In this document: positions 4,313 through 29,582 of the stretch, piece after piece
Layout: each line of letters begins with the position of its first letter
Numbering within the stretch: the first letter of the stretch is position 1
Assembly (NCBI RefSeq): GCF_014647375.1
Contig: NZ_BMPB01000003.1
Location: forward strand, 372,001 to 436,000
Reading direction: 5' to 3'
DNA from: Parabacteroides faecis
GTDB lineage: Bacteria; Bacteroidota; Bacteroidia; Bacteroidales; Tannerellaceae
DNA: 64,000 nt
The notes under the pieces: model-generated
Databases searched by the model: none
Told to the model about the DNA's origin: nothing
Seen by the model: the letters and a program-made list of their open reading frames with translations, nothing else
Position numbers and translations under genes: made by a program

Positions 4313-4549
4313 ATGGAAAAAATTATTAAAACAGGGTTTGTCTTTCTATTATTATTCGGTGCATGGTATTTCGGTCACACTACTTCGGATAAAAATCCAA
4401 TGAATGAGTTGATGCTTGAAAACATCGAAGCATTAGCTAATAATGAAAATGGTCAACATGGCGAAAACTATCGATGTTACGGTAGAGGTGAAGTAGATTG
4501 TGACGGCGAGAAATTTGAAATTAGATTCAGTGGTTTCAGTTTAGACTAA
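4313..4549 (+). CDS. NVEALA-family secreted peptide (NIEALA variant)
   Basis: A 78-residue precursor. Residues 5-22 form a hydrophobic signal-type helix. Residues 37-42 are NIEALA, a variant of the motif that names the NVEALA family of Bacteroidales. The part after the motif (36 residues) is polar and Gly-rich with two cysteines (C55, C63). The motif ends Ala-Leu-Ala, which resembles a signal peptidase I site, so the cargo could be released after residue 42 (inference). Unlike the other three NVEALA genes it lacks the conserved upstream leader and hairpin, and the next lipoprotein begins only 3 bases after its stop. It is the first gene of the island. Confidence 0.75.
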   Translation: MEKIIKTGFVFLLLFGAWYFGHTTSDKNPMNELMLENIEALANNENGQHGENYRCYGRGEVDCDGEKFEIRFSGFSLD

Positions 4550-4552
4550 CGT

Positions 4553-5611
4553 ATGAAATCTCTCCCTTACATATTATTAATAGGTATTAGTACCCTTGTC
4601 GCCTGTTCAGGAAACCAGCAAACCACTTTCCCCCGGTACGCTGACTTTCCCGAAACGAAGGTGCTCAAGGCCCAGGTAGCAGACCTGGATACTATCCTGC
4701 TCCGTTACCCATTCCGGGTAGCGGTCAGGGATGGTATTGCCGTGGTGATGGACCTGCATAATATGGATCATTTCCTACATGCTTTTACCTATCCCGGATG
4801 GAAACACCTAGCCTCTTTCGGAAAGCGCGGGGAAGGACCTATGGAGATGCTTTCCGCCGACAACATTCAATTCAACTCCTTAGACTCTTTATGGGCGATC
4901 GACGCCAATAAAATGGAGATTACACGTTGGAAAATATCTCCGGCTACCGGTTCTGCGGAACGGGTCGAAGAGATCAAACTGGATAAGAAACTGGTCCGTT
5001 CACTCGACTTTCATACGATGGAATCGGGGTTTTTCATTCCCGACTACATGGGAGAGTTCCGTTATTGGCAAGTGGACGACAACGGAAAGCCGGTCAAAAG
5101 TATCGGGGAAATACCATCCGAAACGATCGACGAAAACACCGTCCGTCCGGCACTTGCACAGGCATGGCGAAGTTTCATGGACTACAATCCCGACAACGGA
5201 ATCTTGGCAATGGCAACCCAATTGGGAGAAGTTTTCGAAATTTTCAACCTGAAAGAGAATACTCATAAGGTGCTTTACGGACCCGAAGGCGAGCCGCAAT
5301 ACAAAGCAGCCCAAGACGGTTCGGGTATCCCCACCGGGATCATGGGCTTTAGCGACATCAAAGTGACAAGTAAATATATCTATGCTGTTTTTCAAGGCAT
5401 CCGGTTTGAAGACAAAATAGCCGCCATCAAACAGGGAAAAGAGCCTGAAAACGGGGCAAAATACATCTATGTGTTCGACCTGGAAGGAAATCCGGTGCGC
5501 CGGTACGAACTCGACCAACGGATTAACAGTATCGATATTAACGAAGACACCAATACGATTGTCGCCACCGAGGCGAAAAGCGACGATCCGATTTTAGAAT
5601 TTAAGATATAA
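4553..5611 (+). CDS. BF3164-type beta-propeller lipoprotein
   Basis: A 352-residue lipoprotein with signal peptide and lipobox ending at C18 (LVAC). The rest consists of repeated beta-strand blocks typical of TolB-like/BF3164 lipoproteins: 'FGKRGEGPMEML' near the N-terminus, 'YIYVFDLEGNPVRRYELD' and a final 'SIDINEDTNTIVAT...DDPILEF'. These are thought to be propellers on the cell surface or periplasmic face of Bacteroidales; their ligands are unknown. It sits between an NVEALA gene and a thioredoxin/DUF1573 gene (8-base gap), so the three probably form one transcript. Its last ~30 codons reappear as a truncated copy at 8728. Confidence 0.75.
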   Translation: MKSLPYILLIGISTLVACSGNQQTTFPRYADFPETKVLKAQVADLDTILLRYPFRVAVRDGIAVVMDLHNMDHFLHAFTYPGWKHLASFGKRGEGPMEMLSADNIQFNSLDSLWAIDANKMEITRWKISPATGSAERVEEIKLDKKLVRSLDFHTMESGFFIPDYMGEFRYWQVDDNGKPVKSIGEIPSETIDENTVRPALAQAWRSFMDYNPDNGILAMATQLGEVFEIFNLKENTHKVLYGPEGEPQYKAAQDGSGIPTGIMGFSDIKVTSKYIYAVFQGIRFEDKIAAIKQGKEPENGAKYIYVFDLEGNPVRRYELDQRINSIDINEDTNTIVATEAKSDDPILEFKI

Positions 5612-5619
5612 CGAACGCC

Positions 5620-6501
5620 ATGAAAAACCTGAATCTATACATATTATTAGTATTAACGATCTTCTTCTCCTGTCAAGACAAACAGAAAGAAGAGAAAAAA
5701 CAGATTGCGCAATTGGTGAACGAATGGCAGGGTAAACAAATTGTATTCCCTGAAAACCTGATCTTCACCCGTTATCTGACAGATACTACGGATTTCCAAA
5801 TTCCGCAATCCGATTATAAGGTATTAATATATGTAGATTCCATTGGTTGTACCAGCTGCAAATTACAACTGCATAAATGGAAGGAACTGATCGAGTATAC
5901 CGATTCGGCCACACAGGGAAAAGTGCCTTTCCTTTTCTTCTTCCATCCCAAAGATGCGAAAGAAATACGCTATCTGTTGAAACGGGATGCTTTCGATCGT
6001 CCGGTCTGTATTGACATAGAGGATCAACTGAACAAATTGAACAAGTTCCCGTCAAATATAACTTTCCAGACATTCCTGCTGGACAAGAACAATAAAGTGG
6101 TTGTATTAGGAAATCCGGTACACAACACGGCGGTGAAAGACCTATATCTGAAACAGATCACCGGCAAAGACAATCCGAACAAAAATATCCCAAAAACAAC
6201 AGCCGAAGCAACACAGATAGAAATCGACTTCGGTACTTTTGGTAAATCGGAAGTAAAGGAAACAACCATAGAAGTAAGAAACATTGGGGACAATCCCCTT
6301 GTGATAGTGGACGTAGGTACCACTTGCGGCTGCACGGCTGCCACTTATGACAAACGCCCCGCAAACCCCGGAGAATCTCTTCGGGTAGGAATTAAGATGA
6401 CACCGAAAGATACAGGATTCTTCGATGAAGTCGTTACGATCAAGTACAATAGTATTAACAACCAACCTGTCAAAGCAAAGATAAAGGGGAATGTTCGATG
6501 A
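5620..6501 (+). CDS. Thioredoxin-like plus DUF1573 lipoprotein, copy 1
   Basis: A 293-residue lipoprotein with the lipobox at C18 (FFSC). Residues 35-185 look thioredoxin-like, with a Cys-Thr-Ser-Cys pair at 77-80 after 'LIYVDSIG', followed by 'FLFFFHP'. Residues 200-293 are a DUF1573 (Ig-like, ASH-related) domain with its 'TTCGCTAATYDK' signature (cysteines 236 and 238). The CxxC pair suggests periplasmic redox or thiol chemistry, which would fit the cysteine-bearing NVEALA cargo peptides nearby (inference). It is almost identical to the gene at 8823; the differences cluster in the first 50 residues. A decayed third copy lies at 22222. Confidence 0.8.
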   Translation: MKNLNLYILLVLTIFFSCQDKQKEEKKQIAQLVNEWQGKQIVFPENLIFTRYLTDTTDFQIPQSDYKVLIYVDSIGCTSCKLQLHKWKELIEYTDSATQGKVPFLFFFHPKDAKEIRYLLKRDAFDRPVCIDIEDQLNKLNKFPSNITFQTFLLDKNNKVVVLGNPVHNTAVKDLYLKQITGKDNPNKNIPKTTAEATQIEIDFGTFGKSEVKETTIEVRNIGDNPLVIVDVGTTCGCTAATYDKRPANPGESLRVGIKMTPKDTGFFDEVVTIKYNSINNQPVKAKIKGNVR

Positions 6502-6708
6502 TCGAACAAATGGGAGTTTGCTGCATCCCGACAAGAATGTACAAGCAAACTCCCGGAGACCCCGAAAAGGAGGTGTATGATGGTAATATAACCGACAAAA
6601 CAGAATGCTACAGGTAACATTCGACTATCTAATCCAAATAGAGTAGGCAAAGATAGAAAATAGCCTGATTAAATAATGATTTAAACAAACAATTAAACAG
6701 ATACGAAT
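6502..6708 (+). promoter_or_regulatory. Conserved NVEALA leader element, copy 1
   Basis: A roughly 200-nt noncoding stretch between the DUF1573 gene and the NVEALA gene, also found at 9705-9911 and 22450-22650. It holds a perfect 11-bp hairpin (GGGAGTTTGCT at 6512-6522, complement at 6544-6554), then a strong Shine-Dalgarno AAGGAGGT (6567-6574), then a micro-ORF ATG ATG GTA ATA TAA (6577-6591), and on the minus strand a -7-like TATCTTTG (6648-6655). The stem and the following 50-plus bases are identical in all three copies while the loop varies. It could be a cis-regulatory leader or encode a small antisense RNA. Confidence 0.7.
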
Positions 6709-6954
6709 ATGAAAAAGTTATTGGGTATCATTGCTATCGCAGCTATAGCTGCTGCAGGCTGGAATTTCAGCCAAAGTCAGAACGAAGTGGAACTGTCAGA
6801 CTTGGCACTGGCTAATGTAGAAGCATTGGCTGACAATGAAAGTGACAGTAAAGGAACATTATATAGTACAGAGCCAGACAAAAACGGCCATACCACGAAT
6901 TGTTGTTGTCCTGGAGATAAAACTTGTGGAGCATCCGCTTGCGCTAAATGTTAA
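6709..6954 (+). CDS. NVEALA secreted peptide with Cys-rich cargo
   Basis: An 81-residue precursor. Residues 3-18 are an Ala/Ile-rich membrane-type signal, residues 30-41 read SDLALANVEALA, and the cargo of 40 residues contains six cysteines (65, 66, 67, 73, 78, 81), with a Cys-Cys-Cys run and a Cys C-terminus. The leader (1-41) is almost identical to that of the peptide at 9912, but the cargo is unrelated. The Cys density suggests disulfides, metal binding or thioether modification in the secreted form; which of these applies cannot be told from sequence. It is preceded by the conserved leader element and followed by a terminator hairpin. Confidence 0.8.
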   Translation: MKKLLGIIAIAAIAAAGWNFSQSQNEVELSDLALANVEALADNESDSKGTLYSTEPDKNGHTTNCCCPGDKTCGASACAKC

Positions 6955-6970
6955 CAACATAATAAATATA

Positions 6971-7029
6971 GGGCGACAGATAGATTTTATCAAATATTGT
7001 ATTCCAATAAATCCTATCTGTCCCCTTTT
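6971..7029 (+). terminator. Hairpin terminator after NVEALA gene
   Basis: Left arm 6971-6983 (GGGCGACAGATAG) and right arm 7014-7025 (CTATCTGTCCCC) pair as 9 plus 3 bp with one bulge, followed by TTTT. It stands 17 bases past the NVEALA stop and separates the peptide from the next lipoprotein. Confidence 0.6.
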
Positions 7030-7364
7030 GAATCAAGATTAGATATCCATGAAATAAATTTTATTTAAACAAATAAAAAGTAGGTGGTGAATATGGATAG
7101 TTTTAATAAAGAATATGCCAACATTACAGCAATCTTCTTACAAGTTATTCACAGTGGTTATGAATAGATACCCACAATAATATAAAATAAGCAAGAAGTG
7201 GTAAAGATCTTTAAGTAAAAAGTTATAGACATAACACCTTGAATTATTCTTTAACAAAATCAAAAACAGCTACTATCCAGCGAAATCATGAACGCATTAA
7301 ATTTATAATTCATGAAAAGTTTAACAAGCTCTTTTTAGAGAAGAGCATAATTATTTATTTACGT
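7030..7364. other. AT-rich intergenic stretch
   Basis: No gene or convincing promoter is seen. The frame of the next lipoprotein is open upstream from 7239, but those 42 codons lack a signal sequence and are AT-rich noise. I therefore place the gene start at 7365, directly before a signal peptide. Confidence 0.5.
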
Positions 7365-8537: not shown

Positions 8538-8727
8538 AACAATCAATTTTATCTTTTGACTGTGTATGACAATTGTTTTGTAGTTTGTTAGTGTTTGCTT
8601 CATTCAAAATTTCCATGGTTTAATGGAAGTGGAATTAATGACCGAAGATGATATACTATACAGTAAATCGGTTCTGTATACGGAGAAGTCTAGCTAGATC
8701 AGAAAATTCCTTCCCCCGTATGCAGCG

Positions 8728-8814
8728 AACAGTATTAACATTAACGAAAAAACAAGCACCATCGTCGGCACAGCGGCGAAAAGAGATAATCCGATCATAG
8801 AATTTATGATATAA
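8728..8814 (+). pseudogene. 3' remnant of a BF3164-type lipoprotein gene
   Basis: The stretch encodes NSINI..EKTSTIVGTAAKRDNPIIEF followed by TAA, aligning with the C-terminus of the gene at 4553 (NSIDI..EDTNTIVATEAKSDDPILEF). No upstream part of the gene remains. It occupies the same place relative to the following DUF1573 gene (stop 8 bases before its ATG) as the intact gene does in copy 1, so a complete module copy once stood here. Confidence 0.8.
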
Positions 8815-8822
8815 TAAACGGT

Positions 8823-9704
8823 ATGAAAACCTTTTATCTTTACATATTATTAATAGCAACCACCTTCTTCTCCTGTCACTACGAACAGAAAGAGAAGGAA
8901 AATAAGATTGCACATCTGGTCAGCGAATGGCAAGGGAAGCAAATACTGTTCCCTGAAAACCTGATCTTCATCCGTTATCTGACAGATACTACGGATTTCC
9001 AAATTCCGGAATCAGATTATAAGGTATTAATATATGTAGATTCCATTGGTTGTACCAGCTGCAAATTACAACTGCATAAATGGAAGGAACTGATCGAGTA
9101 TACCGATTCGGCCACACAGGGAAAAGTGCCTTTCCTTTTCTTCTTCCATCCCAAAGATACGAAAGAAATACGCTATCTGTTGAAACGAGACGGCTTCGAC
9201 CGTCCGATCTACATCGACTTAGAGGATCAACTGAATAAATTGAACAAGTTCCCGGCAAATATGACCTTCCAGACATTTCTGTTGGATAAAGACAATAAAG
9301 TGGCTGTATTAGGAAATCCGGTACACAACACGGCGGTGAAAGACCTATATCTGAAACAGATCACCGGCAAAGACAATCCGAACAAAAATATCCCAAAAAT
9401 AACAGCCGAAGCAACACAGACAGAAATCGACTTCGGTACTTTTGGAAAATCGGAAGTAAAGGAAACAACCATAGAAGTAAGAAACATTGGGGACAATCCC
9501 CTTGTGATAGTGGACGTAAGTACCACTTGCGGCTGCACGGCAGCCACTTATGACAAACGCCCCACAAACCCCGGAGAATCTCTTCGGGTAGGAATTAAGA
9601 TGACACCGAAAGATACAGGATTCTTCGATGAAGTCGTTACGATCAAGTACAATAGTATTAACAACCAACCTGTCAAAGCAAAGATAAAGGGGAATGTTCG
9701 GTGA
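8823..9704 (+). CDS. Thioredoxin-like plus DUF1573 lipoprotein, copy 2
   Basis: A 293-residue paralog of the protein at 5620 with the same architecture: lipobox at C18, CTSC at 77-80 and DUF1573 'STTCGCTAATYDK' near 233-245. From about residue 55 to the end it differs at only a handful of positions, whereas the first 50 residues differ often. This mosaic pattern suggests recent duplication with gene conversion of the 3' part. It is followed by the second copy of the NVEALA leader element. The likely role is the same as copy 1: a membrane-anchored extracytoplasmic thiol protein of unknown substrate. Confidence 0.8.
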   Translation: MKTFYLYILLIATTFFSCHYEQKEKENKIAHLVSEWQGKQILFPENLIFIRYLTDTTDFQIPESDYKVLIYVDSIGCTSCKLQLHKWKELIEYTDSATQGKVPFLFFFHPKDTKEIRYLLKRDGFDRPIYIDLEDQLNKLNKFPANMTFQTFLLDKDNKVAVLGNPVHNTAVKDLYLKQITGKDNPNKNIPKITAEATQTEIDFGTFGKSEVKETTIEVRNIGDNPLVIVDVSTTCGCTAATYDKRPTNPGESLRVGIKMTPKDTGFFDEVVTIKYNSINNQPVKAKIKGNVR

Positions 9705-9911
9705 TCGAACAAATGGGAGTTTGCTGCATCCCGACAAGAATGTACAAGCAAACTCCCGGAGACCCCGAAAAGGAGGTGTATGATGGTAATATAACCGACA
9801 AAACAGAATGCTACAGGTAACATTCGGCTATCTAATCCGAATAGAGTAAGCAAAGATAGAAAATAGCCTGATTAAATAATGATTTAAATAAACAATTAAA
9901 CAGATACGAAT
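9705..9911 (+). promoter_or_regulatory. Conserved NVEALA leader element, copy 2
   Basis: Nearly identical to 6502-6708: hairpin arms 9715-9725 and 9747-9757, AGGAGGT before a micro-ORF at 9780-9794, and minus-strand TATCTTTG at 9851-9858. Only a few bases differ from copy 1. Confidence 0.7.
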
Positions 9912-10163
9912 ATGAAAAAGTTATTTGGTGTCATTGCTATAGCAGCGATAGCAGCAGCAGGCTGGAACTTCAGCCAAAGTCAGAACGAAGTGGAACTGTC
10001 AGACTTGGCACTGGCTAATACGGAAGCATTAGCTCAAGGTGAATTATTACCAGGCGGTAATCGATACATAGTCCGTGTACACCCTGGCGGATCAATATCT
10101 GGCGGTGATGTACATGTTGAAATAGATTGCGATCCAGGTGGCAGCAGTATTTGTACTAAATAA
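9912..10163 (+). CDS. NVEALA secreted peptide (NTEALA variant) with Gly-rich cargo
   Basis: An 83-residue precursor with almost the same 41-residue leader as the peptide at 6709 (changes at residues 5, 7 and 37). The motif is NTEALA at 36-41. The 42-residue cargo is unrelated to that of copy 1: Gly-rich (PGG, PGGSISGG, PGGSS) with only two cysteines (C73, C81). This makes it a clear example of constant leader and variable cargo. A hairpin follows 14 bases past the stop, then a propeller lipoprotein. Confidence 0.8.
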   Translation: MKKLFGVIAIAAIAAAGWNFSQSQNEVELSDLALANTEALAQGELLPGGNRYIVRVHPGGSISGGDVHVEIDCDPGGSSICTK

Positions 10164-10176
10164 GACCAATTCCATA

Positions 10177-10205: not shown

Positions 10206-10247
10206 TATTATATTACATTTTCATTTTATAAACTCAAATTCATTCTT

Positions 10248-11399: not shown

Positions 11400-12422
11400 A
11401 TGAAATATATATTACTATTTTACTCATTTTTATTTATGACATTTTCATGTCAAGATAAAATGAACATCAAAGATTATAGCATACCTATAAAAACAGATAA
11501 ACAACTAAACGGTAAAATTCAATTTTCAAAAGATGAGTCTTGTTATTTTTATGATTTAAAAATAATGAATAATTTTTACTTATTTCTTGACGAAAGATCA
11601 GATACCGTACTTAGGGTATACAAACAAGGTAACATATCTTATCCTTATGGAAGTTTGTGTAGAAGTTCTGAAAAAGATAAGTTATGGATGCCTTTATTCA
11701 CAAAAGAAACACATAACTATTTAAATAATACAGAGATCACATTTTTGGTCGACAACAATCAATATTATAAAAGCATAACCCTAAACAACAAAAACAGCAA
11801 TATAAAAATAAACATATCTAAACTATTTGACCTAAAAAACATGTTTTGTCGTGATTTTAATATCACCTCTAAAGATATTTATGCCATCCCTGTAAGTCGA
11901 TATAATAAAAATTCTTATTTTTTTTTCAATCCAGATTCCGGCTACTACTGGGTAGATCCATCACCTTCAATCGAAGAGATAATGCCAAAAGACAATCTGT
12001 CATACACAAATACTATTTGTCTAAACGAAAGTCAAAACACAATTGTTTCTGCTTATCGCTTTACCAATTATGTATCTTTTTACGAATTAGACGGAACATT
12101 AAAGACGACTATTAAATTTGGAGAAACACCTGTCATCCCTATAGTAAATCCTGACCGGGATGAAATAGATGTCAGAAATACTCCTAAATGCTTTACCTAT
12201 ATTTGCGGATCCTCCCAATACGTTTACTGCTTATATGATGGTTCTTCTGATTTCACAGCTCCCTCAAAAATAGCAGTTTTCCAATGGAATGGAAAACATA
12301 TAGCCACTTGGCAGGCAAACCGTAATCTACGGGCAATAGCTGTAGATAAAAATGATAAGTATATTCTAGCCATAGCATCCAACAAAGATGGACAAGATAT
12401 TATTAAATATGACTTAGAATAA
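11400..12422 (+). CDS. BF3164-like beta-propeller lipoprotein (divergent)
   Basis: A 340-residue lipoprotein with lipobox at C17 (TFSC). The N-terminal two thirds are divergent and AT-rich, but the C-terminus 'IAVFQWNGKHIATWQANRNLRAIAVDKNDKYILAI' matches the last blades of the BF3164-type lipoproteins in this island. It lies 30 bases after a propeller gene and 6 bases before a transglutaminase-fold gene, so it is probably co-transcribed with both. Function unknown. Confidence 0.65.
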   Translation: MKYILLFYSFLFMTFSCQDKMNIKDYSIPIKTDKQLNGKIQFSKDESCYFYDLKIMNNFYLFLDERSDTVLRVYKQGNISYPYGSLCRSSEKDKLWMPLFTKETHNYLNNTEITFLVDNNQYYKSITLNNKNSNIKINISKLFDLKNMFCRDFNITSKDIYAIPVSRYNKNSYFFFNPDSGYYWVDPSPSIEEIMPKDNLSYTNTICLNESQNTIVSAYRFTNYVSFYELDGTLKTTIKFGETPVIPIVNPDRDEIDVRNTPKCFTYICGSSQYVYCLYDGSSDFTAPSKIAVFQWNGKHIATWQANRNLRAIAVDKNDKYILAIASNKDGQDIIKYDLE

Positions 12423-12428
12423 TAAACC

Positions 12429-13940
12429 ATGAAAAATCTTTTTACAAAAAGTATAAACATCTTATTAGCAGCTTTTCTAATAGCTTGTAATACACAGAAT
12501 GATAAAAAACTGGAACAAGCTCTTGATAATGCTAAAGAAAACCGGCAAGAACTTGAAAAAGTACTTAGCCATTATGAAAAGGATTCGGCAAAACTCGCCG
12601 CTGCTCGTTTCCTGATTGAGAATATGCCCTATCATTTCACACAGGAACAATATTATACTTCTTCCGGGAAAGAACAATATCGACCGGAGATTATAAATTT
12701 CGACGGATTTCAATCCATAAAAAGTCACTGTGACTCATTAACAAGAAGAGGATACAAAATCAAAACGCATAACAAATACGATATATCGACACTTGACAGC
12801 CGCTTTCTTATTGACAATATAGAACTAGCTTTTACTGTCAGGCAAAAACCATGGGCAAAAAATGTTTCATTCAATGATTTCTGTAAATATATCCTCCCCT
12901 ACCGCGCACAATGTGAAGAGGTTTCTCATTTGAGAAAAGAAATTATGGAGCGTTTCGTTCCCATACTTGATTCAGCTAAAGTAAAAACCCCTCTTGAGGC
13001 ATGCATCGTACTTAATGAGCATCTGAAAGGCATTATGAAATATGGACATACCGGTCTTCCCTTTTATCCGACCATTGACGAAACCTACCATTCCGGAATC
13101 AGCCAATGCGAGGGATTATGCAATCTGGGTACTTTTATAATGCGGGCTTGCGGCATTCCGGTCACAGTAGAACAGACAACCTGGACTAAAATGGACTTGG
13201 GGCATAGCTGGTGTGTAGTTTTAGACAATGGAAAATTTTATAGCTTCGGACCGGGAGAAGATCAGCCCGATACACATGCCCGCTCTTTTTCAGAAGTCAG
13301 ACATCGACGACCTGCTAAAGTATATCGTTCACGTTTTGATCCGGACTTTTCTATTATGGACAGAAAAGACGACGGATATGTTACAACTCTAAAAAGTCCT
13401 CTAATTTATGATGTAACCAATGAATATCTGGATAAAACGACATCGATAAAAGTTTCCGTCGACAAAAACAACAGAAAAAAAGGAAAATCAAATCAAGTCT
13501 ATTTATGTACTTACAATCACTATGAATGGTGCCCGATAGCGATCGGACATAGAAAAGATACCGTTTGTTATTTCGAAAACGTTGTTGGAGATAACATCTT
13601 CATAGTTGCCGATTCACCGGATGGGAGCAAATTGAGAAATATTACTACTCCCTTTTATACGGATAAAGACGGAAATATTCGTAAATTTATCCCTCTAAAA
13701 GAACATAAACAAACATTCACATTGAATAAACGTAAGAAAAAACCGGATCAAGTACATACGCTATACTTCTGGGATACAGAGAAAGACAGGTTTACCCCAT
13801 TAGAATATGTCAGTTCAACTGATACTACACAAACATACGATCAAATACCAGCAAATGCATTACTATGGTTCACTATACCGGAAAGGATCGTTAACCAACG
13901 GATATTTTTTATTGAAAACGACAGTATAAAAAACTATTAA
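12429..13940 (+). CDS. Transglutaminase-fold lipoprotein, short form
   Basis: A 503-residue lipoprotein, lipobox at C20 (LIAC). Residues 26-65 are a helical region (KKLEQALDNAKENRQELEKV) shared by all four paralogs in the island. The core at 220-285 is transglutaminase/papain-like: candidate nucleophile C227 in 'SQCEGLCNL', H259 in 'LGHSW', and an acidic residue in 'FGPGEDQ'. It could cross-link or hydrolyse amide bonds outside the cell. Unlike its paralogs it lacks most of the C-terminal discoidin-like domain, keeping only the last strand region. It opens a dense run of four genes (12429-16806) with gaps of 24-28 bases. Confidence 0.7.
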   Translation: MKNLFTKSINILLAAFLIACNTQNDKKLEQALDNAKENRQELEKVLSHYEKDSAKLAAARFLIENMPYHFTQEQYYTSSGKEQYRPEIINFDGFQSIKSHCDSLTRRGYKIKTHNKYDISTLDSRFLIDNIELAFTVRQKPWAKNVSFNDFCKYILPYRAQCEEVSHLRKEIMERFVPILDSAKVKTPLEACIVLNEHLKGIMKYGHTGLPFYPTIDETYHSGISQCEGLCNLGTFIMRACGIPVTVEQTTWTKMDLGHSWCVVLDNGKFYSFGPGEDQPDTHARSFSEVRHRRPAKVYRSRFDPDFSIMDRKDDGYVTTLKSPLIYDVTNEYLDKTTSIKVSVDKNNRKKGKSNQVYLCTYNHYEWCPIAIGHRKDTVCYFENVVGDNIFIVADSPDGSKLRNITTPFYTDKDGNIRKFIPLKEHKQTFTLNKRKKKPDQVHTLYFWDTEKDRFTPLEYVSSTDTTQTYDQIPANALLWFTIPERIVNQRIFFIENDSIKNY

Positions 13941-16806: not shown

Positions 16807-16816
16807 ATCTAAAACA

Positions 16817-21008: not shown

Positions 21009-22121
21009 ATGAGAACAATTAACATTATCATTTCGGTTGTATTTCTTAGTCTATTTATTTGTTGTAATTCCAATAATTGTGACAAGAAATATTTTAATGG
21101 AGATATTCAATATTTTGAAGAAAACAGTACAACAACAAAAGTAGTCAAGAGTAAAATTCTCACATTGAATGGGAATAATACCGGCATGATAGCTGTATAT
21201 GATTCACTATTGATTTGTTGGAGTCCTAGTTATCAAAATCATTTCTTTAAGATTTTCAATGTGGATACAGGGGAAGAAATTGGAACCTTCTGTAACAAAG
21301 GGCGGGGCGACAATGAGGTAATATCCGTCGGTTGTATAATGCAATTATTTAAAAAAGGAAATGATATAATGACTTTACTTTATGCCTCTAATGAAGGTAA
21401 ATTATTTTTATGGAATATCAGCCAATCTATAGAAAAAGGCACGACAGTATATGATGCAATTGTCCCATATAACAATGATCGCATATTCTTCGAATTTTAT
21501 CAATCAGATGATATACTTTTTGCCTATAAACCTGCTGAATATTTGAACGCGAACGAAGCTGCTACTCCATATTATGAAAAACGTACGATTTCCACGAACA
21601 AGTTAATACAGGATTATCCCATTTACAAAACAAAGTCTGTACAAAACAATAATGTAAACGAGAGAAATTCTGTAAACTTCTTTTTTTATACATGGGATGC
21701 AGTGAAACCTGATGGCTCTAAGATTGTCCAGGTTATGAAACACCTTCCGCAAATAAATATCTTAGACATTCCTACAGGAAACCTTACAGGATACAGAATG
21801 AAAAACAGTCCTGATTTTTCTCTTTTGGAAACGAATATGGAGTCCATGGATGTGTTTTATAATTGTGTACATGCAGATGACAACTATATTTATGCAACTT
21901 ATTGGGGGAGAAAACCATGGAATGACCATCTTGGCGTTGAACTTCCGAAGTTTAATATGATACATGTATTTGACTGGAACGGTAAACTCCTTTATAAACT
22001 TACAACTGATCGCTCTTTCTATCGTGTATGGCTAGATCCAGTAAGAAAACGATTATATACAATAAATCTGAATAATGACGAAGTGTATTATTTAGACTCA
22101 GAAGATATTATCTTTCATTAG
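21009..22121 (+). CDS. BF3164-type beta-propeller lipoprotein
   Basis: A 370-residue lipoprotein with lipobox at C18/C19 (LFICC). The block 'FNVDTGEEIGTFCNKGRGDNE' matches the 'GxxGxGPxE' turn of BF3164-type propellers, and the C-terminus 'FDWNGKLLYKLTTDRSFYRVWLD...KRLYTINLNNDEVYYLD' matches their last blades. The end of this gene also appears as a fragment at 24163 after the next lipoprotein. It stands upstream of a decayed third module. Function unknown; likely outer-surface or periplasmic. Confidence 0.7.
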   Translation: MRTINIIISVVFLSLFICCNSNNCDKKYFNGDIQYFEENSTTTKVVKSKILTLNGNNTGMIAVYDSLLICWSPSYQNHFFKIFNVDTGEEIGTFCNKGRGDNEVISVGCIMQLFKKGNDIMTLLYASNEGKLFLWNISQSIEKGTTVYDAIVPYNNDRIFFEFYQSDDILFAYKPAEYLNANEAATPYYEKRTISTNKLIQDYPIYKTKSVQNNNVNERNSVNFFFYTWDAVKPDGSKIVQVMKHLPQINILDIPTGNLTGYRMKNSPDFSLLETNMESMDVFYNCVHADDNYIYATYWGRKPWNDHLGVELPKFNMIHVFDWNGKLLYKLTTDRSFYRVWLDPVRKRLYTINLNNDEVYYLDSEDIIFH

Positions 22122-22221: not shown

Positions 22222-22449
22222 TATGGTATCTGAAACAGCAATCCCCTCGTAATCGTGGACGTAAGTACCATCTGCGGATGCACGGCAGCCACTTATGAGA
22301 AACGGCCTGCAAAATCCGGAGAAACTCTCCGCGTGAGAATCAAGATGACACCGAAGGATATAGGTTTCTTCGATGAAGTCGTGACAGTCAGGTACAACAG
22401 CATGAACAATCAAACTGTCAAAGTAAAAATTAAGGGGAATGTTCGGTGA
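22222..22449 (+). pseudogene. Remnant of a thioredoxin/DUF1573 lipoprotein gene (third copy)
   Basis: From 22240 the sequence encodes NPLVIVDVSTICGCTAATYE and continues to GNVR plus stop, the C-terminal 69 residues of the proteins at 5620 and 8823. Before it, the short 'TATCTGAAACAG' also matches the intact genes near the codons for YLKQ, so an internal deletion joined two parts. The signal peptide and the CxxC domain are gone. The stop is followed directly by the conserved NVEALA leader element. Confidence 0.85.
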
Positions 22450-22650
22450 TCGAGCAAGTGGGAGTTTGCTGCACGACGGCAAAATTGTACAAGCAAACTC
22501 CCGGAGACCCCGAAAAGGAGGTGTATGATGGTAATATAACCGGCAAAACAGAATGATACAGATATCATTCGACTATCTAAATCCGAATAAGGTTGACAAA
22601 GATAGAGAATTACCTGCAATGAAAAATAACGAAATAAATTTATAAATAAG
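22450..22650 (+). promoter_or_regulatory. Conserved NVEALA leader element, copy 3
   Basis: Same elements as copies 1 and 2: hairpin arms 22460-22470 and 22492-22502 with both arms unchanged but a substituted loop, AGGAGGT and the micro-ORF at 22525-22539, and minus-strand TATCTTTG at 22597-22604. It has survived although the gene upstream has decayed. Confidence 0.7.
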
Positions 22651-22971
22651 ATGAACAAGAAATTTTTTGGCGCAACACTCATAGCTGCACTCGCAATTAC
22701 AGCAAGCTGGAACTACCAGCAGAATGAAAATAAAATTGAAATGTCAAATTTAGCACTAGCCAATGTGGAAGCACTGGCTAACGAAGAAGGATGGGGACCT
22801 ATAGTAGAAAAAACTTGTTATACTGCTTTTAGTGGATATGATAGTAATATCTATTTAACATGTAGTCAATATTCAACTGACGAATCCGTAAAATATCCCT
22901 GTGGTGCAGCTACTTCACAAAAACCAGCTTGGGGTATAACACTGGTTGGTAAATGTTACCAATACATTTAA
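22651..22971 (+). CDS. NVEALA secreted peptide, long cargo
   Basis: A 106-residue precursor: signal-type helix at 5-20, 'MSNLALANVEALA' ending at residue 43, and a 63-residue cargo with four cysteines (56, 71, 84, 102) and several aromatic residues. The leader is clearly related to those at 6709 and 9912 but more diverged; the cargo is again different. Four spaced cysteines would allow two disulfides. It has the conserved leader element upstream and a long hairpin downstream. Confidence 0.8.
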   Translation: MNKKFFGATLIAALAITASWNYQQNENKIEMSNLALANVEALANEEGWGPIVEKTCYTAFSGYDSNIYLTCSQYSTDESVKYPCGAATSQKPAWGITLVGKCYQYI

Positions 22972-24138: not shown

Positions 24139-24162
24139 CAAAAATTTGCTTCAATATAGAAT

Positions 24163-24231
24163 AGACTTTACACACAAAATCATGATACGGATGAAGTGTA
24201 CTATATTGATTTAAATGAATTAAATTTATAA
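24163..24231 (+). pseudogene. 3' remnant of a BF3164-type gene
   Basis: The frame reads RLYTQNHDTDEVYYIDLNEL and stops, aligning with the end of the gene at 21009 (RLYTINLNNDEVYYLDSED). It ends 7 bases before the transglutaminase-fold gene at 24239, the position that the intact lipoprotein at 11400 holds before the gene at 12429. Confidence 0.75.
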
Positions 24232-24238
24232 TAATCAA

Positions 24239-26257
24239 ATGAAATACTCACTATTTCTACAAACAATCCTCATCCTGTCTTTTTTCCTGACAGCCTGTAC
24301 CTCTCCAGATGACCTACGCCTGGAACAAGCCTTGGCGTTTGCTGGGAACAACCGAGGAGAGTTGGAGAAAGTACTCTCATATTATGCCGGTGATTCTTTG
24401 AAACAGGCTGCCGCCCGCTTCCTGATTATGAATATGACCGGACACACGGGATATGATCCTTCCATTATCCCTCTCTTACAACCGGTTTACCAAAAGCATG
24501 TGGCCATTTCCCAAAAATACGATTGGAAACGACCGAATGACTGGAGGAAAGAGATCAATGAATTGTGGAATGAAGAAAGAGTGAAAATCAATTTATATAA
24601 GTATCCCAACATACAAGATGCCCAAACGGTTAAAGCGGATTGGTTGATCAAAGAAATAAATTTGGCATTCAAGGCTTGGAAAGAAAATGTTTATACAAAA
24701 AACGCCCCTTTTGAGGAGTTTTGCAAATATATCCTACCCTACCGATTCAGTGACAAATTCTGTCTCGATAATAACCGAAAGACTTTTTATGACCGCCATC
24801 ATGGGATATTCGACGATGTGTCAAAAGATTTCAGGGAGGTAACCGATTCGTTGCACTTTTTGTATAGCGATATAATGAATAGTGCCGGTTATGCGGCTTC
24901 CATGCCGATATGCAATATCGCGGGATATGAACAGATCAAAAGAGGAATATGCGATATGCAAACCCAATTCAACGCGCACCTCATGTCTGCTTTGGGAATG
25001 GCTGTCGCCATTGACTTTGTACCAATGTGGGGAAACCGCTCGGAAGGACATAGCTGGAACGCATTAATTGTTGATGGAAAAACTCATCCCTTCGAACCGT
25101 TCTGGGATGAAGACAGATGGAAGTACAACAAACTGTACGGCAACAGTGATTTTATCGATCTGAAAGCATCGAAGTTCAGGCTGCCGAAAGTGTTCCGAAA
25201 ATCATACGAATACTATCTGACCGGACCGATGGCAGACAAGAACGAAAAGCCGAACAACATTCCTAATTTATTCAAAAACCCTTGGATACGAGATGTCTCT
25301 ACCGAATACTTCCAAACGTCTGACGTAACGATAGACTTGTCGGAAAACATTCCCGAGAATACCTGTTATTGTTATTTATGTGTCTACAACGCCCTGAAAA
25401 TGACCTGGCATCCTGTTCAATGGGGGAAAATAAACAAGAAAAAAGTCATTTTCAAAAATATGGGACGTGGCATCGTGTATTTACCGGCTTTCTACCAAAA
25501 CGGAGAAGTCATACCTGCCGCTCCACCTTTTATTCTTGATAAAAACGATAAATGCAAACAGGTTACTCCCAACCGACATAAAAAAGAAGAGATCACGGTC
25601 AACACGATAACTCCTTTAAGTACCGGTCTCACCCACACACTTGCCGGTGCCCATTGGATCGGATGCTATATATCCGGTAGTGAAGAACGGAAGGATACTT
25701 TATGTACATTGACAGATTCGATAGATAGCTACTGCAATTATATCACATTTGATACCTCAAGAAAGTACCAGAAGATTTGTTTGGCTTTGCCGCAAAAGAC
25801 CATTGCCCTCAGTGAAATTACGTTTTATGAAAAAAACGAGAACCGACCAGAAGAAATACCGGATATCCGCGTAACCGCAAATGTTTCGAAGGATTCAGTA
25901 AAAGAACTTTATAAAATCGTAGATGGTTTATCCGGAACCGGCTTTCTGGGTTCTTTCGATAAAGATACCCCTAAAGAGAAGATACTTACATTCGATTTGG
26001 GCAAAGAAACGGAAATAACTGCCATATCAATTATTCCCAAGTCGGGAATACAGGTGGATAACCGGACAAACTACACTTTGTATTATTGGGACAACAAGTG
26101 GATAGAGGAAAAAACAGTCAAAGGCAATGGGGAAAGCATCACTTTCAAGAACATTCCATCCGAGGCATTGTATCTCATAAAATCCGACAAACCGGCAGAT
26201 CCGTATTTTACAGAAAGAATTTTCACCTATAAAAACGGGAGGATATATTGGTGGTAA
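24239..26257 (+). CDS. Transglutaminase-fold lipoprotein with discoidin-like C-terminus
   Basis: A 672-residue lipoprotein, lipobox at C20 (LTAC), sharing 'LRLEQALAFAGNNRGELEKVL' and 'FEEFCKYILPYRFSD' with its paralogs. The core has C238 in 'KRGICDMQTQ' and H271 in 'SEGHSWNAL', with acidic residues in 'FWDEDRW'. Residues about 510-665 are discoidin-like. It belongs to the same family as 12429, 13965 and 16817 and is directly followed by truncated copies of the signal peptidase and of another transglutaminase-fold gene, so this end of the island is a decayed duplicate of 13965-18739. Confidence 0.7.
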   Translation: MKYSLFLQTILILSFFLTACTSPDDLRLEQALAFAGNNRGELEKVLSYYAGDSLKQAAARFLIMNMTGHTGYDPSIIPLLQPVYQKHVAISQKYDWKRPNDWRKEINELWNEERVKINLYKYPNIQDAQTVKADWLIKEINLAFKAWKENVYTKNAPFEEFCKYILPYRFSDKFCLDNNRKTFYDRHHGIFDDVSKDFREVTDSLHFLYSDIMNSAGYAASMPICNIAGYEQIKRGICDMQTQFNAHLMSALGMAVAIDFVPMWGNRSEGHSWNALIVDGKTHPFEPFWDEDRWKYNKLYGNSDFIDLKASKFRLPKVFRKSYEYYLTGPMADKNEKPNNIPNLFKNPWIRDVSTEYFQTSDVTIDLSENIPENTCYCYLCVYNALKMTWHPVQWGKINKKKVIFKNMGRGIVYLPAFYQNGEVIPAAPPFILDKNDKCKQVTPNRHKKEEITVNTITPLSTGLTHTLAGAHWIGCYISGSEERKDTLCTLTDSIDSYCNYITFDTSRKYQKICLALPQKTIALSEITFYEKNENRPEEIPDIRVTANVSKDSVKELYKIVDGLSGTGFLGSFDKDTPKEKILTFDLGKETEITAISIIPKSGIQVDNRTNYTLYYWDNKWIEEKTVKGNGESITFKNIPSEALYLIKSDKPADPYFTERIFTYKNGRIYWW

Positions 26258-26258
26258 T

Positions 26259-26593
26259 CAGAAATTTATCGCATTCCCGGTTTTAAAAGGATAAAACGCA
26301 ATGATATTCTGGTTTTCAATTTTCCACATCCAAACAGTTGGGATAAAATTGAAATGCATATACTCAAATATTACATCAAACGGTGTGTCGGAATACCGGG
26401 AGATACCTTATCCATCCGAAACGGATTCTTTCATGTGGAAGGCGTACAAATGCCTCTCGGCAACATGGATTCACGTTACTGGGGATTACTGCCCGAAGAA
26501 TATATTGTAGGGAAAGCCTGGATTATTTGGAAATCGGTCGATCCATATACTGATAAATTTCGGTGGAATCGTTTTTTAAAAGTCATTCATTAA
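26259..26593 (+). pseudogene. Truncated, internally deleted signal peptidase I copy
   Basis: Nearly identical to 16167-16380 joined to 16688-16806 of the intact lepB. The first 78 or so codons, including the catalytic S43, are absent. An internal 306-base, in-frame deletion lies between two GGATTCAC copies that are separate in the intact gene (16374 and 16680). The K117 region and the C-terminal RYWG box remain. An ATG-initiated frame of 79 codons (26354-26593) is open but lacks the nucleophile, so it cannot be an active peptidase. Confidence 0.9.
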
Positions 26594-26603
26594 ATCTAAA
26601 ACA

Positions 26604-26729
26604 ATGAAAAAAGCAATCCTGAAAAGAAAAATATCATTATGCGGCGGTTACAAAGATTTTCCGCACCGGGGATTCATTGGTTCCCAGATGGAAAACAGCA
26701 CTTTACGGTTGATTTATGAACTAGAATAA
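26604..26729 (+). pseudogene. Remnant of a transglutaminase-fold lipoprotein gene
   Basis: Begins with the same 'taaatctaaaacaATGAAAAAAGC' context as the gene at 16817, jumps to a segment like its residues 420-432 (ILKRKISL), and ends with TTTACGGTTGATTTATGA as the intact gene does at 18721-18739, though in a shifted frame. Most of the gene is deleted. Confidence 0.75.
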
Positions 26730-26826
26730 GTCAGATTTATTTCAAAGAAATATTTTCAAAACGTATAAATAATGAATACATTTACACCGATGATCTGATT
26801 TTAATATAGCAAACAGTTAGATTTAG

Positions 26827-28029
26827 ATGAAAAGAGTTGACGTAATTTTAGCTATATTCCTGATAATAGCAACAGGGTGCGGAGGTAATAAAAAATCGAA
26901 CAGCTCCAATAATAACACCAGCACAGTTGCTACACAGGACACTTTCATCACGGTTGATGTCAGTAAGAAATACCCCCTGAAGGAGTTAATTCTTCAGGAT
27001 ATTATGGATGTAGAATATATTCCGTTAGAGTCTACAGACGAATTTCTTTGCCAAGGCGTTGTACAAGCTATAGGCAAAGAAATTATATTAGTGAAGAACG
27101 TCATCAACGATGGTGACATTTTTATCTTTGACAGAAACGGCAAAGGTTTGAGAAAGTTCAACCGTAAGGGCCAAGGCTCTGAAGAATACATATTTAACCT
27201 AAGTGTTTTCTTGGATGAGGATAAAGGTGAAATATATGTTGACGAAGTAATCAGAAACGTATTAGTATATGATTTATATGGAAATTTTTTAAGAAACATC
27301 CATAGAGACAAAGTTAAATGGATCAATGCAAGTAATTATAACTCAGATTTTTTGATCGCCAGAGAATCGCCATCTGCCCAGAAAGGTAAAGACACAGATA
27401 ATCAACTATTTGTGCTTATATCCAAACAAAATGGAAATGTTGTCAAAGATTTTCGAATCTATTTTGAAAAGAAAATAGAATGGGGAATAACCAACCATGC
27501 AGGAAATACAGGAGCTGCACCTCGCCCTTATCCTATCATCCCTTATCACGATGGTTGGCTTCTTATGGAACCTTCTTCCGATACGATATTCAGAATCTCA
27601 CAAGATTATAGTTTATCCCCTTTTATGGCAAGGACACCGTCCATACAATCCATGAAACCTGCCGTATTCCTCTTACCCTGCATTTTTACCGATCGCTACC
27701 ATTTCATGGAAACAATAACAATGGAAGCTAATTTTTTAAGAAATGAAGGATTCCCGAAAACGCAGTTGGTATATGACAAAAAAGAAAATACATTATTTGA
27801 ATATATTATGCTCAATAAAGATTTTCCTGAAAAAGGCCTTGTGAATTTTACAATGCAGGAAACCACTAACAGTGAAATCGCATTTTGGCAAAAAATGGAA
27901 CCCCATGAACTTATTGAGGCTTATGCAAAAGGACAATTGAAAGGGAAATTGAAAGACATTGCAGCGGAACTGCAAGAGGATTCAAATCCTGTAATAATGT
28001 TAGTAAAATACAGAAAAGTTACCTTATGA
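26827..28029 (+). CDS. 6-bladed beta-propeller lipoprotein
   Basis: A 400-residue lipoprotein with lipobox at C18 (ATGC) and a Ser/Asn/Thr linker. 'DIMDVEYIPLESTDEFLCQG' and 'IFIFDRNGKGLRKFNRKGQGSEEY' are the standard N-terminal signature of the 6-bladed beta-propeller family; the C-terminus 'EDSNPVIMLVKY' is also typical. It overlaps the next gene by ATGA, so the two are translationally coupled. It may be an independent two-gene unit at the end of the island. Ligand unknown. Confidence 0.8.
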   Translation: MKRVDVILAIFLIIATGCGGNKKSNSSNNNTSTVATQDTFITVDVSKKYPLKELILQDIMDVEYIPLESTDEFLCQGVVQAIGKEIILVKNVINDGDIFIFDRNGKGLRKFNRKGQGSEEYIFNLSVFLDEDKGEIYVDEVIRNVLVYDLYGNFLRNIHRDKVKWINASNYNSDFLIARESPSAQKGKDTDNQLFVLISKQNGNVVKDFRIYFEKKIEWGITNHAGNTGAAPRPYPIIPYHDGWLLMEPSSDTIFRISQDYSLSPFMARTPSIQSMKPAVFLLPCIFTDRYHFMETITMEANFLRNEGFPKTQLVYDKKENTLFEYIMLNKDFPEKGLVNFTMQETTNSEIAFWQKMEPHELIEAYAKGQLKGKLKDIAAELQEDSNPVIMLVKYRKVTL

Positions 28030-29582
28030 TACCCCAAAAAAGAAGAACTGATCTTTATTTGTTTAATTGGACTATAGTATTGATAGCAATCATTTCTTTC
28101 AATTCATGTAAAGATCACAAGACAATTTCCTTCAATCAAGATTATTCGATCGATACAGTAAAGATGTCGATCGGAGACAGTTGTCTTCAAACATATACTA
28201 CACTAAGAAACAGAGTTTATGGAAATAACTTCTATTGTTTCAATAAATTACAACATTGCATCGATATATTCGATCTATCGGCGAAACAACTCATTAACCA
28301 ATTAAAGATAGACCGTGAAGGGGCAAATGGAATAACAAACATAGAGGCCTTTTGTGTTTGCGGTGATTCCATTTTCATTCAAAATGAAACGAACTATATA
28401 CTAATGAATCATCGGGGAGAAATCATCAGGAAAATATCCAAAGACAAATTAAACAACCTCATCGATCAAAACATATATTCTTTTTTCCCTACAAGTATTA
28501 CATTATCCAATTTTGAAAATCTCATATTCGATAAAAAATACAATGAATTAATAATACCCATCAATATAACAGATCCGTTGGCACTAAAGGATAAATCCTG
28601 TATTGCGACAATAGATATAGAAAAAGAGACTGTGAATTTACTTCCTGCGTATTTTCCTTCTACCGTAACAAATAAGTATTATGGGAAATTAGCGACTGCC
28701 CAGATACTAAGCAAAGGGGATAGTATAATATACAATTTTGCAAACTCATCATATGTATATATATACGATCGTATAAATAAACAGACCTATGAATATAATA
28801 TAAAAAGTGATTATACCCCCAATTTATCTGAAAGCTTAGACAAAAACGCCAATATGGAAAGGGTATTTGACCACTATTTACATTCGCTGTTTTTTCATAA
28901 TATGCAATACGACGAGTATAGAAATCTTTATTACCGCATACATACAGATAAAAGTAACGACAAATCGGCATTTAATAACAAAGAGACATTTCTTGCTATC
29001 ATAAATTCGCAGTTTGAGAAAATCAATGAAATAAAATTACCGTCCAATACTTATCCCGTATTCAATATAGCACCTAACGGGCTAATATTCGTTTTCATGA
29101 AAGGTCTGGATGAAGACTATTTCAGTTATGCAGAACTAACAAACTCCAACATTTACAAAGTGCCCAGTCCATCGCAAGCGAATATTCTCCCCCAGGAAAC
29201 TGCTGTTAAAAACAAAAACAGCCAAACCCCCAAAAAGGTATCAACTAAACCGGGAAAGGCTCCTGTAATGACTTCTGAGAAAATCGGTAACTTTATAAAA
29301 GAGAATATGATATATCCTGAATATGAATTAGAAAACAAGATTGAAGGATATGTATATGTTGTTTTAGAAAGTGATAGTACAGGAAATGTTATAAGTTACA
29401 ATATATCTGAGATAGCAACAACTACCGATAATGAGAATTTTCGTAAAGAAGCGCTCAGGATAGGCCACTTAATCAAACAGATTTATCCCAATATCACTTT
29501 TGCTTTCCATGTACCTTTTCTTATTGACAACTACCTGGAGAATCATAAAAATAAAGTCAACTCATGTGAGAATAACGAATAA
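28026..29582 (+). CDS. Propeller lipoprotein fused to a TonB-C-like domain
   Basis: A 518-residue protein with a membrane segment and lipobox at C28 (FNSC). Residues about 40-380 look like a DUF4221/BF3164-type propeller. Residues about 380-415 are a Lys/Pro/Thr-rich linker, and residues about 415-510 resemble the TonB C-terminal domain: 'IKENMIYPEYELENKIEGYVYVVLESDSTGNV'. TonB-C domains contact TonB boxes of outer-membrane receptors or act as periplasmic binding modules. A lipoprotein propeller with this tail could couple a surface ligand to envelope machinery (inference). It overlaps the previous gene by 4 bases. Confidence 0.65.
   Translation: MIPQKRRTDLYLFNWTIVLIAIISFNSCKDHKTISFNQDYSIDTVKMSIGDSCLQTYTTLRNRVYGNNFYCFNKLQHCIDIFDLSAKQLINQLKIDREGANGITNIEAFCVCGDSIFIQNETNYILMNHRGEIIRKISKDKLNNLIDQNIYSFFPTSITLSNFENLIFDKKYNELIIPINITDPLALKDKSCIATIDIEKETVNLLPAYFPSTVTNKYYGKLATAQILSKGDSIIYNFANSSYVYIYDRINKQTYEYNIKSDYTPNLSESLDKNANMERVFDHYLHSLFFHNMQYDEYRNLYYRIHTDKSNDKSAFNNKETFLAIINSQFEKINEIKLPSNTYPVFNIAPNGLIFVFMKGLDEDYFSYAELTNSNIYKVPSPSQANILPQETAVKNKNSQTPKKVSTKPGKAPVMTSEKIGNFIKENMIYPEYELENKIEGYVYVVLESDSTGNVISYNISEIATTTDNENFRKEALRIGHLIKQIYPNITFAFHVPFLIDNYLENHKNKVNSCENNE

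Follow-up and report, generated by a model that had tools for sequence, protein, structure and literature searches.

Gene content and layout of the island

The sequence analysed here, referred to throughout as the window, is a 64-kb stretch of the 6.66-Mb genome of Parabacteroides faecis. Its positions 2580-29582 contain an island in which precursors of NVEALA peptides (N) are encoded together with propeller lipoproteins (P), thioredoxin-like/DUF1573 lipoproteins (D), transglutaminase-like lipoproteins (T), a signal peptidase I (S), a Wzy_C protein (W) and a regulator (R). Within each precursor, the leader is the part up to the end of the NVEALA motif and the cargo the part that follows it. 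The gene for R, on the minus strand, diverges from an operon with the order N1-P1-D1-N2-P2-D2-N3-P3-propeller-like gene-T1-T2-S-T3-W; downstream of W lie a propeller gene, a D fragment, N4-P4, T4, a broken copy of S and two propeller-like genes, all of these being, like the operon, on the plus strand. The original prediction, made from the DNA alone, described four NVEALA peptides, eight propeller-type proteins, two thioredoxin/DUF1573 and four transglutaminase-fold lipoproteins, a signal peptidase I and an O-antigen-ligase-like protein standing together, an inventory confirmed by profiles and alignments. We likewise see no convincing unrelated gene between the members in the list of open reading frames. 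The clustering thus stands, but not the proposed start at 4313, since the island begins at 2580 with the divergent R. Further additions to that prediction are R itself, the division into conserved and variable peptides, the pairing of cargo and propeller, operator-like repeats, and resistance-nodulation-division (RND) genes beside some islands.

All four precursors in the window score above the PF14055 cut-off (43.5-57.9 bits against 27). N1 (4313-4549; 49 bits) adjoins R and bears a cargo of a conserved two-Cys class, C-Y-G-R-G-E-V-D-C. Directly 3' of it lies P1 (4553-5611; PF15869, E=1.2e-83), followed by D1 (5620-6501), a lipoprotein joining a thioredoxin-like CxxC to a DUF1573 domain with C-x-C (PF07610 passed). 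The gap between D1 and N2 contains a hairpin recognised by eye (6500-6560). N2 (6709-6954; 57.9 bits) has a Cys-rich variable cargo, with the leader/cargo homology boundary at 6831, and a terminator-like hairpin, also seen by eye (6955-7040), separates it from its presumed partner P2 (7239-8537; PF17170, E=4e-39), whose start as a lipoprotein is probably at 7365. A relic of the 3' end of P1 (8728-8814, matching 5525-5611 in the self-comparison) then heads a duplicated block (5525-6831 against 8728-10034, 92.5% identity). A 50-amino-acid open reading frame at 8648-8800 was considered as a leader gene and rejected: since it overlaps this relic in another frame, it is probably no gene. Next come D2 (8823-9704), a near-copy of D1 assigned by that identity and not by Pfam scan, and N3 (9912-10163; 43.5 bits), which carries another cargo on the common leader and whose identity to N2 ends at 10034. 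P3 (10182-11369; PF17170, E=7e-66), the presumed partner of N3, probably has its true start near 10248. A third cassette is headed by the 3' end of a D gene (D3 fragment, 22239-22449; 9494-10034 against 22239-22779, 79% identity) and contains N4 (22651-22971; 48.9 bits), with a third variable cargo and homology to N3 ending at 22779, and its presumed partner P4 (23101-24138), a propeller-like lipoprotein with a PF15869 score below the cut-off (20.3 bits). Six of the eight propellers in the window exceed a Pfam cut-off: PF15869 (genes starting at 4553 and 21009), PF17170 (7239, 10182 and 26827) and PF13970 (28026).

Leader and cargo

The identities found within the window stop at 6831, 10034 and 22779, which in each gene is exactly where the NVEALA motif ends; a single pairing of the three, 6291-6840 against 22239-22788, extends nine bases farther. 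This was assessed more widely on precursors from two sets of loci, described below, which yielded 104 and 345 N matches; the motif allowed 99 and 316 of these to be divided into leader and cargo, and 263 of the precursors are unique. When precursors of the same locus but with unrelated cargo are compared (174 pairs), DNA identity falls from 0.83 over the last 12 leader bases to 0.47 over the next 12 and 0.27-0.31 beyond. Leader similarity is 0.75 within a locus against 0.57 for the same cargo family across loci (85 comparisons; p = 8e-19, the pairs not being independent). Since leaders are more alike within a locus and homology ends at the motif, the leader is the island's own and the cargo the exchanged part.

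Each precursor has an N-terminal hydrophobic segment, a spacer and the sequence N-V-E-A-L-A. The residue preceding the boundary is Ala in 257 of the 263 unique precursors, Gly in three and Thr in three, while Ala occupies position -3 in 255. Ala-x-Ala is the established cutting pattern of signal peptidase I. The cargos are mostly 30-45 residues long. A 201-residue open reading frame in another locus (L208, 10409-11014), beside a propeller and a short signal peptidase, has the leader end N-A-E-A-N-A; such a leader may also front larger cargos.

Peptide classes and cysteines

The unique precursors comprise 64 that adjoin an R gene and 199 others, here termed variable. The former are uniform, with Glu at +3 in 64/64, exactly two Cys in 61 and the motif C-x(2,3)-[GS]-x-[VIL]-x-C in 59, the latter found in just 17 of the 199 others. 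The variable cargos most often have four Cys (99), followed by two (44) and six (30). Overall, the Cys count is even in 237 of the 263 precursors, where chance would give half. By these comparisons there is one conserved two-Cys class beside R, and there are many variable peptides.

Pairing of cargo and propeller

A propeller gene directly follows 179 of the 199 variable N genes. In a first set of 67 pairs, 18 between-genome comparisons had similar cargos, one of them between two N1-type peptides not flagged as such, and in 16 of the 18 the propellers were similar too, against 0.9% of the remaining comparisons. Permuting propellers within genomes yielded a maximum of 0.49, compared with 0.73 observed. 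A larger set of 177 pairs allowed the relationship to be graded: like propellers accompany 0.1% of 15,073 comparisons with cargo similarity below 0.2, 7% of 246 at 0.2-0.3, 50/73 at 0.3-0.5, 17/21 at 0.5-0.7 and 18/18 above 0.7. Median leader similarity stays at 0.34-0.38 for cargo similarities up to 0.7. The propeller, lying a median of 83 bp past the cargo, still tracks it, and the leader abuts it. Seven comparisons combine like propellers with unlike cargos; four of these involve runs of several N before one propeller and two an N1-type peptide. It is highly probable, judging from this co-divergence, that a cargo and its downstream propeller are cognate pairs.

Not every propeller has a peptide: 225 of the 366 unique propellers follow an N, 132 do not and nine lie at an edge. 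Identity of at least 30% to a paired propeller of another locus is seen for 78 of the 132 unpaired and 147 of the 225 paired propellers. The surplus of peptide-free propellers is the asymmetry expected of immunity genes. Stable hairpins (z < -2) follow 49/73 variable N and 19/32 D genes, compared with 3/25 N1, 1/37 T, 1/23 S and 17/141 propeller genes, a placement which suggests that peptide and propeller amounts are controlled separately.

A simple lipobox rule predicts 321/380 propellers, 94/99 D and 73/87 T proteins to be lipoproteins. In this phylum an acidic stretch after the lipid-bearing Cys acts as a surface-export signal. Two acidic residues just after that Cys occur in 16 of the 321 propellers against 19 of 146 other lipoprotein-like open reading frames, so that surface display of the propellers, and with it the suggestion of the original prediction that they display cargo, is unsupported. 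At least two acidic residues at +2 to +5 are found in 27/94 D, where the picture is less clear, and in 6/73 T. A sequence search of the Protein Data Bank (PDB) with P1 gave no match.

Recurrence across Bacteroidales

Of 124 family genomes, 62 contain NVEALA genes at E 0.001 and 59 do so above the curated cut-off; for 393 genomes drawn from the order the corresponding figures are 26 and 22, the 26 including three members of the family. Gene content was typed in 40 stretches plus the window (n=41), giving NVEALA in 40, propeller in 40, D in 31, R in 29, T in 28, S in 23 and W in 22. These counts are not independent, since the profiles used for typing were built up from genes of the window and then extended on the same loci; the stretches were hand-picked from the NVEALA genome listing, with several per genome and some ended by contig ends, and one of them, the DNA preceding the window (L060), holds no NVEALA. 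Random windows and loci anchored on D are independent of the profile seeding. Twenty random 20-kb windows of the same genomes were drawn and two overlapping NVEALA islands set aside; in the remaining 18, NVEALA, D, T, S and R each occur zero times, propeller three times and W twice. The D-anchored search of a named collection yielded 78 loci, from Parabacteroides, Tannerella, Bacteroides fragilis, Phocaeicola vulgatus and others. Among those of at least 18 kb (n=45), which contain D by construction, N and P are both present in 45, R in 39, T in 38, S in 28 and W in 24; the species partly overlap those of the first set, and only identical leader-cargo pairs were removed. The usual order is R facing N-P-D-N-P, then more N-P pairs, followed by T, S and W, and loci of other families retain parts of the gene set.

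The co-occurrence proposed originally is borne out. At E 1e-5, NVEALA is accompanied by one or more of the partners D, T, S, W and R in 35/40 family loci (hand-picked and including the window) and in 15/20 loci of other families, so that NVEALA genes without any partner are the minority in both. Strong T matches (E<=1e-60, a threshold placed in the gap separating two score groups) and NVEALA occur together in 46 of the 124 genomes, NVEALA alone in 16, T alone in eight and neither in 54 (Fisher p = 3.6e-12, kinship ignored). That this is a conserved system seems to us virtually certain.

Two side observations may be added. A relative of D (98% query coverage, 46% identity) is encoded on a 159-kb plasmid of Phocaeicola massiliensis (OY726023.1; locus L211), so that components of the system may be transferable among strains. 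A tetratricopeptide repeat (TPR) protein of median length 583 residues (for example L168, 232-2403) is found in 11 loci, adjoins D in six and sometimes stands in R's place.

Processing enzymes and candidate exporter

The signal peptidase S (15937-16806) has intact catalytic boxes and scores 101.2 bits with TIGR02227 against a cut-off of 47; the Ser and Lys boxes are largely conserved in 31 island copies. Because the genome encodes further signal peptidases outside its islands, S is an extra one. A profile built from island copies gives 519-527 bits for the genome's two island copies and 78-195 for its other copies, although a tree of signal peptidases shows no clean split of the island copies. 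The proposal that the leader is cut by the local peptidase fits the Ala-x-Ala at the homology boundary, and we consider cleavage of the precursor by S rather likely on this evidence.

Alignment of D proteins (28 rows) shows C77, C80 and C236 to be invariant and C238 nearly so. A D profile matches StoA (PDB code 3erw, E=6.6e-5); D1 has no Pfam thioredoxin match, the CxxC active site being present. The original prediction that the cargo is oxidised agrees with the even Cys counts and the invariant CxxC, and cargo disulfides are probably formed via D. Its alternative, that the cargo is cross-linked, fares less well: in the T proteins Cys and His are invariant but the acidic third residue is not. 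All four window copies align with 42 relatives (46 rows), Cys227 and His259 being invariant with no invariant acid after them, and T may therefore be a protease or an amide-forming enzyme. T1 (12429-13940) lies just below the PF01841 cut-off at 19.9 bits; T2 (13965-15908; 25.5 bits) is the one copy of the four to pass and has a discoidin-like tail (PF00754 below cut-off); T3 (16718-18739, start probably 16817) falls just below; and T4 (24239-26257) lacks a PF01841 core match and has a PF00754 tail below cut-off, the Cys and His of both T3 and T4 being placed by the family alignment. The T profile matches the transglutaminase chain 6g49 weakly (E=0.074) and its tail matches carbohydrate-binding domains (2yb7, E=1.2e-23), while a PDB sequence search with T1 gave no match.

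W (18736-20577; PF04932, E=5e-15) is an O-antigen ligase/polymerase-like multi-pass protein with a TPR tail, an arrangement known in O-glycan transferases. It matches the polysaccharide polymerase/ligase 7tpg weakly (E=0.0055), in a family which covers several activities. In the window's genome two stretches (L209, 8162-11828 and L210, 9455-12236) contain W-T pairs with no NVEALA and with other small open reading frames nearby, such as one at 6633-6785 near the L209 pair, in which cysteines are present; perhaps the same enzymes there serve another precursor family.

Genes for a membrane-fusion protein, an RND protein and TolC recur at island ends and are found in none of the 18 clean random windows. 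In 10 of the 35 W genes with room, the membrane-fusion gene comes directly after W and is itself followed by RND (12/39 for the membrane-fusion gene under a different room and distance rule). These RND-TolC genes are, from their position, a candidate exporter. The window's genome contains eight NVEALA genes spread over three places, and its second island (L207, 4155-17147), similar in layout to that of the window, ends W - membrane-fusion - RND - TolC - RND - W, a possible exporter set.

Regulator and promoter region

R (2580-4082, minus strand) is a putative membrane-bound regulator with two transmembrane segments flanking a periplasmic domain of about 130 residues, a long coiled coil and a C-terminal OmpR-type winged helix (PF00486, 19.9 bits, below the cut-off of 26.2). 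Two transmembrane segments are found in this protein and in 31/35 R proteins. R is a candidate for the ToxR/CadC-like membrane one-component regulators, which unite an OmpR-type winged helix, a membrane segment and a periplasmic domain within a single chain. The structure of the sensor domain is predicted with a pLDDT of 88.3, and a PDB sequence search with the sensor profile gave no match. The coiled-coil part of the window R contains internal tandem repeats (2989-3411) with a 168-bp period, 92% identical over 189 bases; since R proteins range from 328 to 525 residues, stalk length probably varies. On its other side R adjoins a PDDEXK_2 (PF12784) nuclease/transposase-like gene at 1542-2402, relatives of which stand beside R in two further loci (L131 and L196).

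A parsed N lies within 500 bp of 67 of the 79 unique R genes. N1 and the R sensor, N1 and P1, and the R sensor and P1 all co-vary after allowing for D. Direct repeats of 11 bp occur, by a spacing test, in 47% of 55 R-N1 gaps against 8% of 61 D-N gaps and 4% of shuffled sequences; k-mer counts in the R-N1 gaps revealed no clear common word. These operator-like repeats are a candidate operator of R, and control of the operon by R together with N1 is, we think, somewhat favoured.

Other features of the window and its genome

A propeller-like lipoprotein at 11400-12422 has no own peptide and no Pfam match, with three matches in three loci, itself included, and another propeller lipoprotein follows W (21009-22121; PF15869, 37.9 bits). 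The broken second signal peptidase copy (26256-26615) has suffered a large internal deletion, its parts being 97.7% and 95.3% identical to 16163-16381 and 16680-16828, respectively. It is followed by a propeller lipoprotein without its own peptide (26827-28029; PF17170, E=8e-28) and a putatively propeller-like DUF4221 lipoprotein (28026-29582; PF13970, 84.6 bits). Beyond the island, inverted repeats at 52095-52171 and 56432-56488 are perhaps terminators. Comparison of the window with Rfam, using gathering scores, yielded no match, and a PADLOC run on 10 proteins a single weak coiled-coil match. Among named sequences, the window D gene is matched best in Parabacteroides gordonii and P. goldsteinii, with protein identities of 81-83%.

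Proposed mechanism and alternatives

Sequence comparison shows the gene set, the pairing, the cassette boundary, the Cys parity and the operator-like repeats, and from these we infer the biochemical steps and biological role. The best explanation, to which we give roughly even chances, is that the islands produce leader-processed, disulfide-bonded secreted peptides with cognate propellers under regulation. The N precursor would be inserted in the inner membrane via its N-terminal hydrophobic segment; S probably cuts after A-L-A, freeing the cargo into the periplasm, where D, with its CxxC and C-x-C, probably makes the cargo disulfides and T and W probably trim or decorate the peptide. The RND-TolC pump encoded near some islands may then export it. 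N-P cassettes would be swapped into islands on the common leader. The variable peptide would be a weapon on other cells and the matching periplasmic propeller the producer's immunity; such antagonism with immunity is the likeliest use, though the odds for and against it are balanced. N1 with P1 probably reports to R, which would bind the 11-bp tandem repeats of the common promoter region and turn the operon on. In its most far-reaching form, which we consider somewhat less likely than not, the picture is of a periplasmic autoinduction circuit of R, N1 and P1 that controls exchangeable peptide/propeller cassettes serving a contest between self and non-self; maturation would then depend on a dedicated signal peptidase and a thioredoxin/DUF1573 protein in place of a double-glycine ABC exporter.

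Several observations weigh against parts of this reading. The Ala-x-Ala lies some 20 residues from the hydrophobic segment (by eye), farther than in ordinary signal peptides, and Glu at +3 in 229/263 precursors suggests recognition extending beyond the cut site. At about 350 residues, the propellers are large for immunity proteins. Above a cargo similarity of 0.7 the leaders are alike too (0.58 and 0.86), a range in which all parts would resemble one another through recent kinship. Slight co-variation is also seen between the N1 leader and the R sensor (0.11), and that of R, N1 and P1 could reflect neighbours being inherited as a block; in the window itself, the R-N1 gap lacks an 11-bp repeat of the kind described. 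RND genes are absent beside the window island, and those at other island ends may mark a conserved insertion site or be mere common neighbours. Strong T is absent from 16/62 NVEALA genomes, and in 10 of 132 NVEALA-bearing loci the stretch lacks all five of D, T, S, W and R. At the looser threshold of E 1e-3 one of these ten (L115) gains a D. Since nine of the ten still hold a propeller, N plus P looks, from gene content, like the smallest unit of the system.

Among the alternatives, the one that survives best, although we think it unlikely, is ligand-receptor signalling, a private peptide language without killing: every propeller would serve in the periplasm as the receptor for its own peptide, and R or other regulators would be informed by all of the pairs. 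The cognate pairing and the co-variation around R would suit it equally; mostly, however, a single N per R adjoins it, lone N-P pairs exist without R in the stretch, and it is not obvious why a signal should need such a number of unrelated cargo families. Less probable still are host-directed or adhesive peptides, with the propellers as chaperones or carriers holding the disulfide-bonded peptide until export or cross-linking. The propeller lipoproteins probably do face the periplasm, the transglutaminase-like Cys and His are retained in T, and the T tail matches carbohydrate-binding domains; yet a carrier of general use should have no cause to diverge in step with every cargo, and the 132 peptide-free propellers would be idle. 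That there is no joint function, unrelated families merely piling up in a recombining island with pairing due to linkage, could draw on the recent duplications and relics in the window and the D homologue on a plasmid but is very improbable, given the similar gene set in several families, the complete absence of N, D, T, S and R from the 18 random windows and a cargo-abutting leader that mostly does not travel with the cargo when the more distant propeller does.

Comparison with known systems

The closest described peptides found are the bacteroidetocins, class IIf bacteriocins of Bacteroidetes (PMC6671954). As reported there, they share with the island small secreted peptides, paired Cys (four in A and B), leader removal and an adjacent thiol oxidoreductase gene; their own are a 15-16 residue double-glycine leader, a peptidase-domain ABC transporter and producers seemingly without immunity proteins. 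The same paper reports these bacteria to be without general disulfide-forming machinery (PMC6671954). In contrast, the island has a membrane-anchored leader ending A-L-A, a signal peptidase I, a propeller per variable peptide and a regulator, and no ABC transporter was seen in it. Its leaders do not have the double-glycine end of that class, the boundary being preceded by Ala in 257 of the 263 unique precursors and by Gly in three, where the boundary is one of homology and the cut a predicted one. Pfam scans of 21 window proteins, and of six neighbour examples in relatives, revealed no C39 peptidase ABC transporter. The NVEALA system may nonetheless work like the bacteroidetocins in principle.

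The inducible class II bacteriocin loci of Gram-positive bacteria, exemplified by pneumococcal blp and plantaricin pln, have a conserved peptide beside the regulator and variable peptides with partner genes, all with one leader type. The island resembles them in its one regulator-side conserved peptide, several variable peptide-partner pairs and shared leader type. They differ in using a two-component system and a double-glycine transporter, where the island has a membrane-embedded regulator, a signal peptidase and a thioredoxin/DUF1573 protein. The arrangement proposed for P1 and R, in which a periplasmic binding protein acts together with a membrane sensor domain, likewise has a known counterpart, although that one uses a small-molecule ligand and a histidine kinase, whereas here the ligand would be a peptide and the regulator would bind DNA directly.

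In keeping with the original prediction, we found no described function for NVEALA proteins in the literature. The word NVEALA did not occur in a search of 5.39 million papers, outside which most subscription journals and preprints lie, and PF14055 matched four malaria-parasite papers and one software-tool paper, by their titles an identifier clash. Searches with domain terms and B. thetaiotaomicron locus tags, of the same coverage, retrieved no description of the system. The tables of a paper on iron limitation list BT0662 (O-antigen ligase), BT0664 (6-bladed propeller), BT0667 (lepB) and BT0669 (RND adaptor), with no system described in the passages retrieved (PMC10434189). By word search, the main text of a 2023 survey of Bacteroidales RiPP (ribosomally synthesised and post-translationally modified peptide) clusters mentions neither propeller, signal peptidase, transglutaminase, thioredoxin nor disulfide (PMC10352776). 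The families are known by name, and the whole system, the pairing rule and the regulatory unit are apparently nowhere described in the literature searched.

Implications

If correct, the proposal offers a testable function for NVEALA proteins, for DUF1573/thioredoxin lipoproteins and for many of the '6-bladed beta-propeller' lipoproteins of gut Bacteroidales. Half of the 124 sampled family genomes (62) would then carry a peptide arsenal or language of which we found no description. Its partner pairs are already laid out in the genomes, along with candidates for the inducer peptide and for the operator, and gut antagonism, bacterial disulfide formation and peptide signalling would become directly testable.

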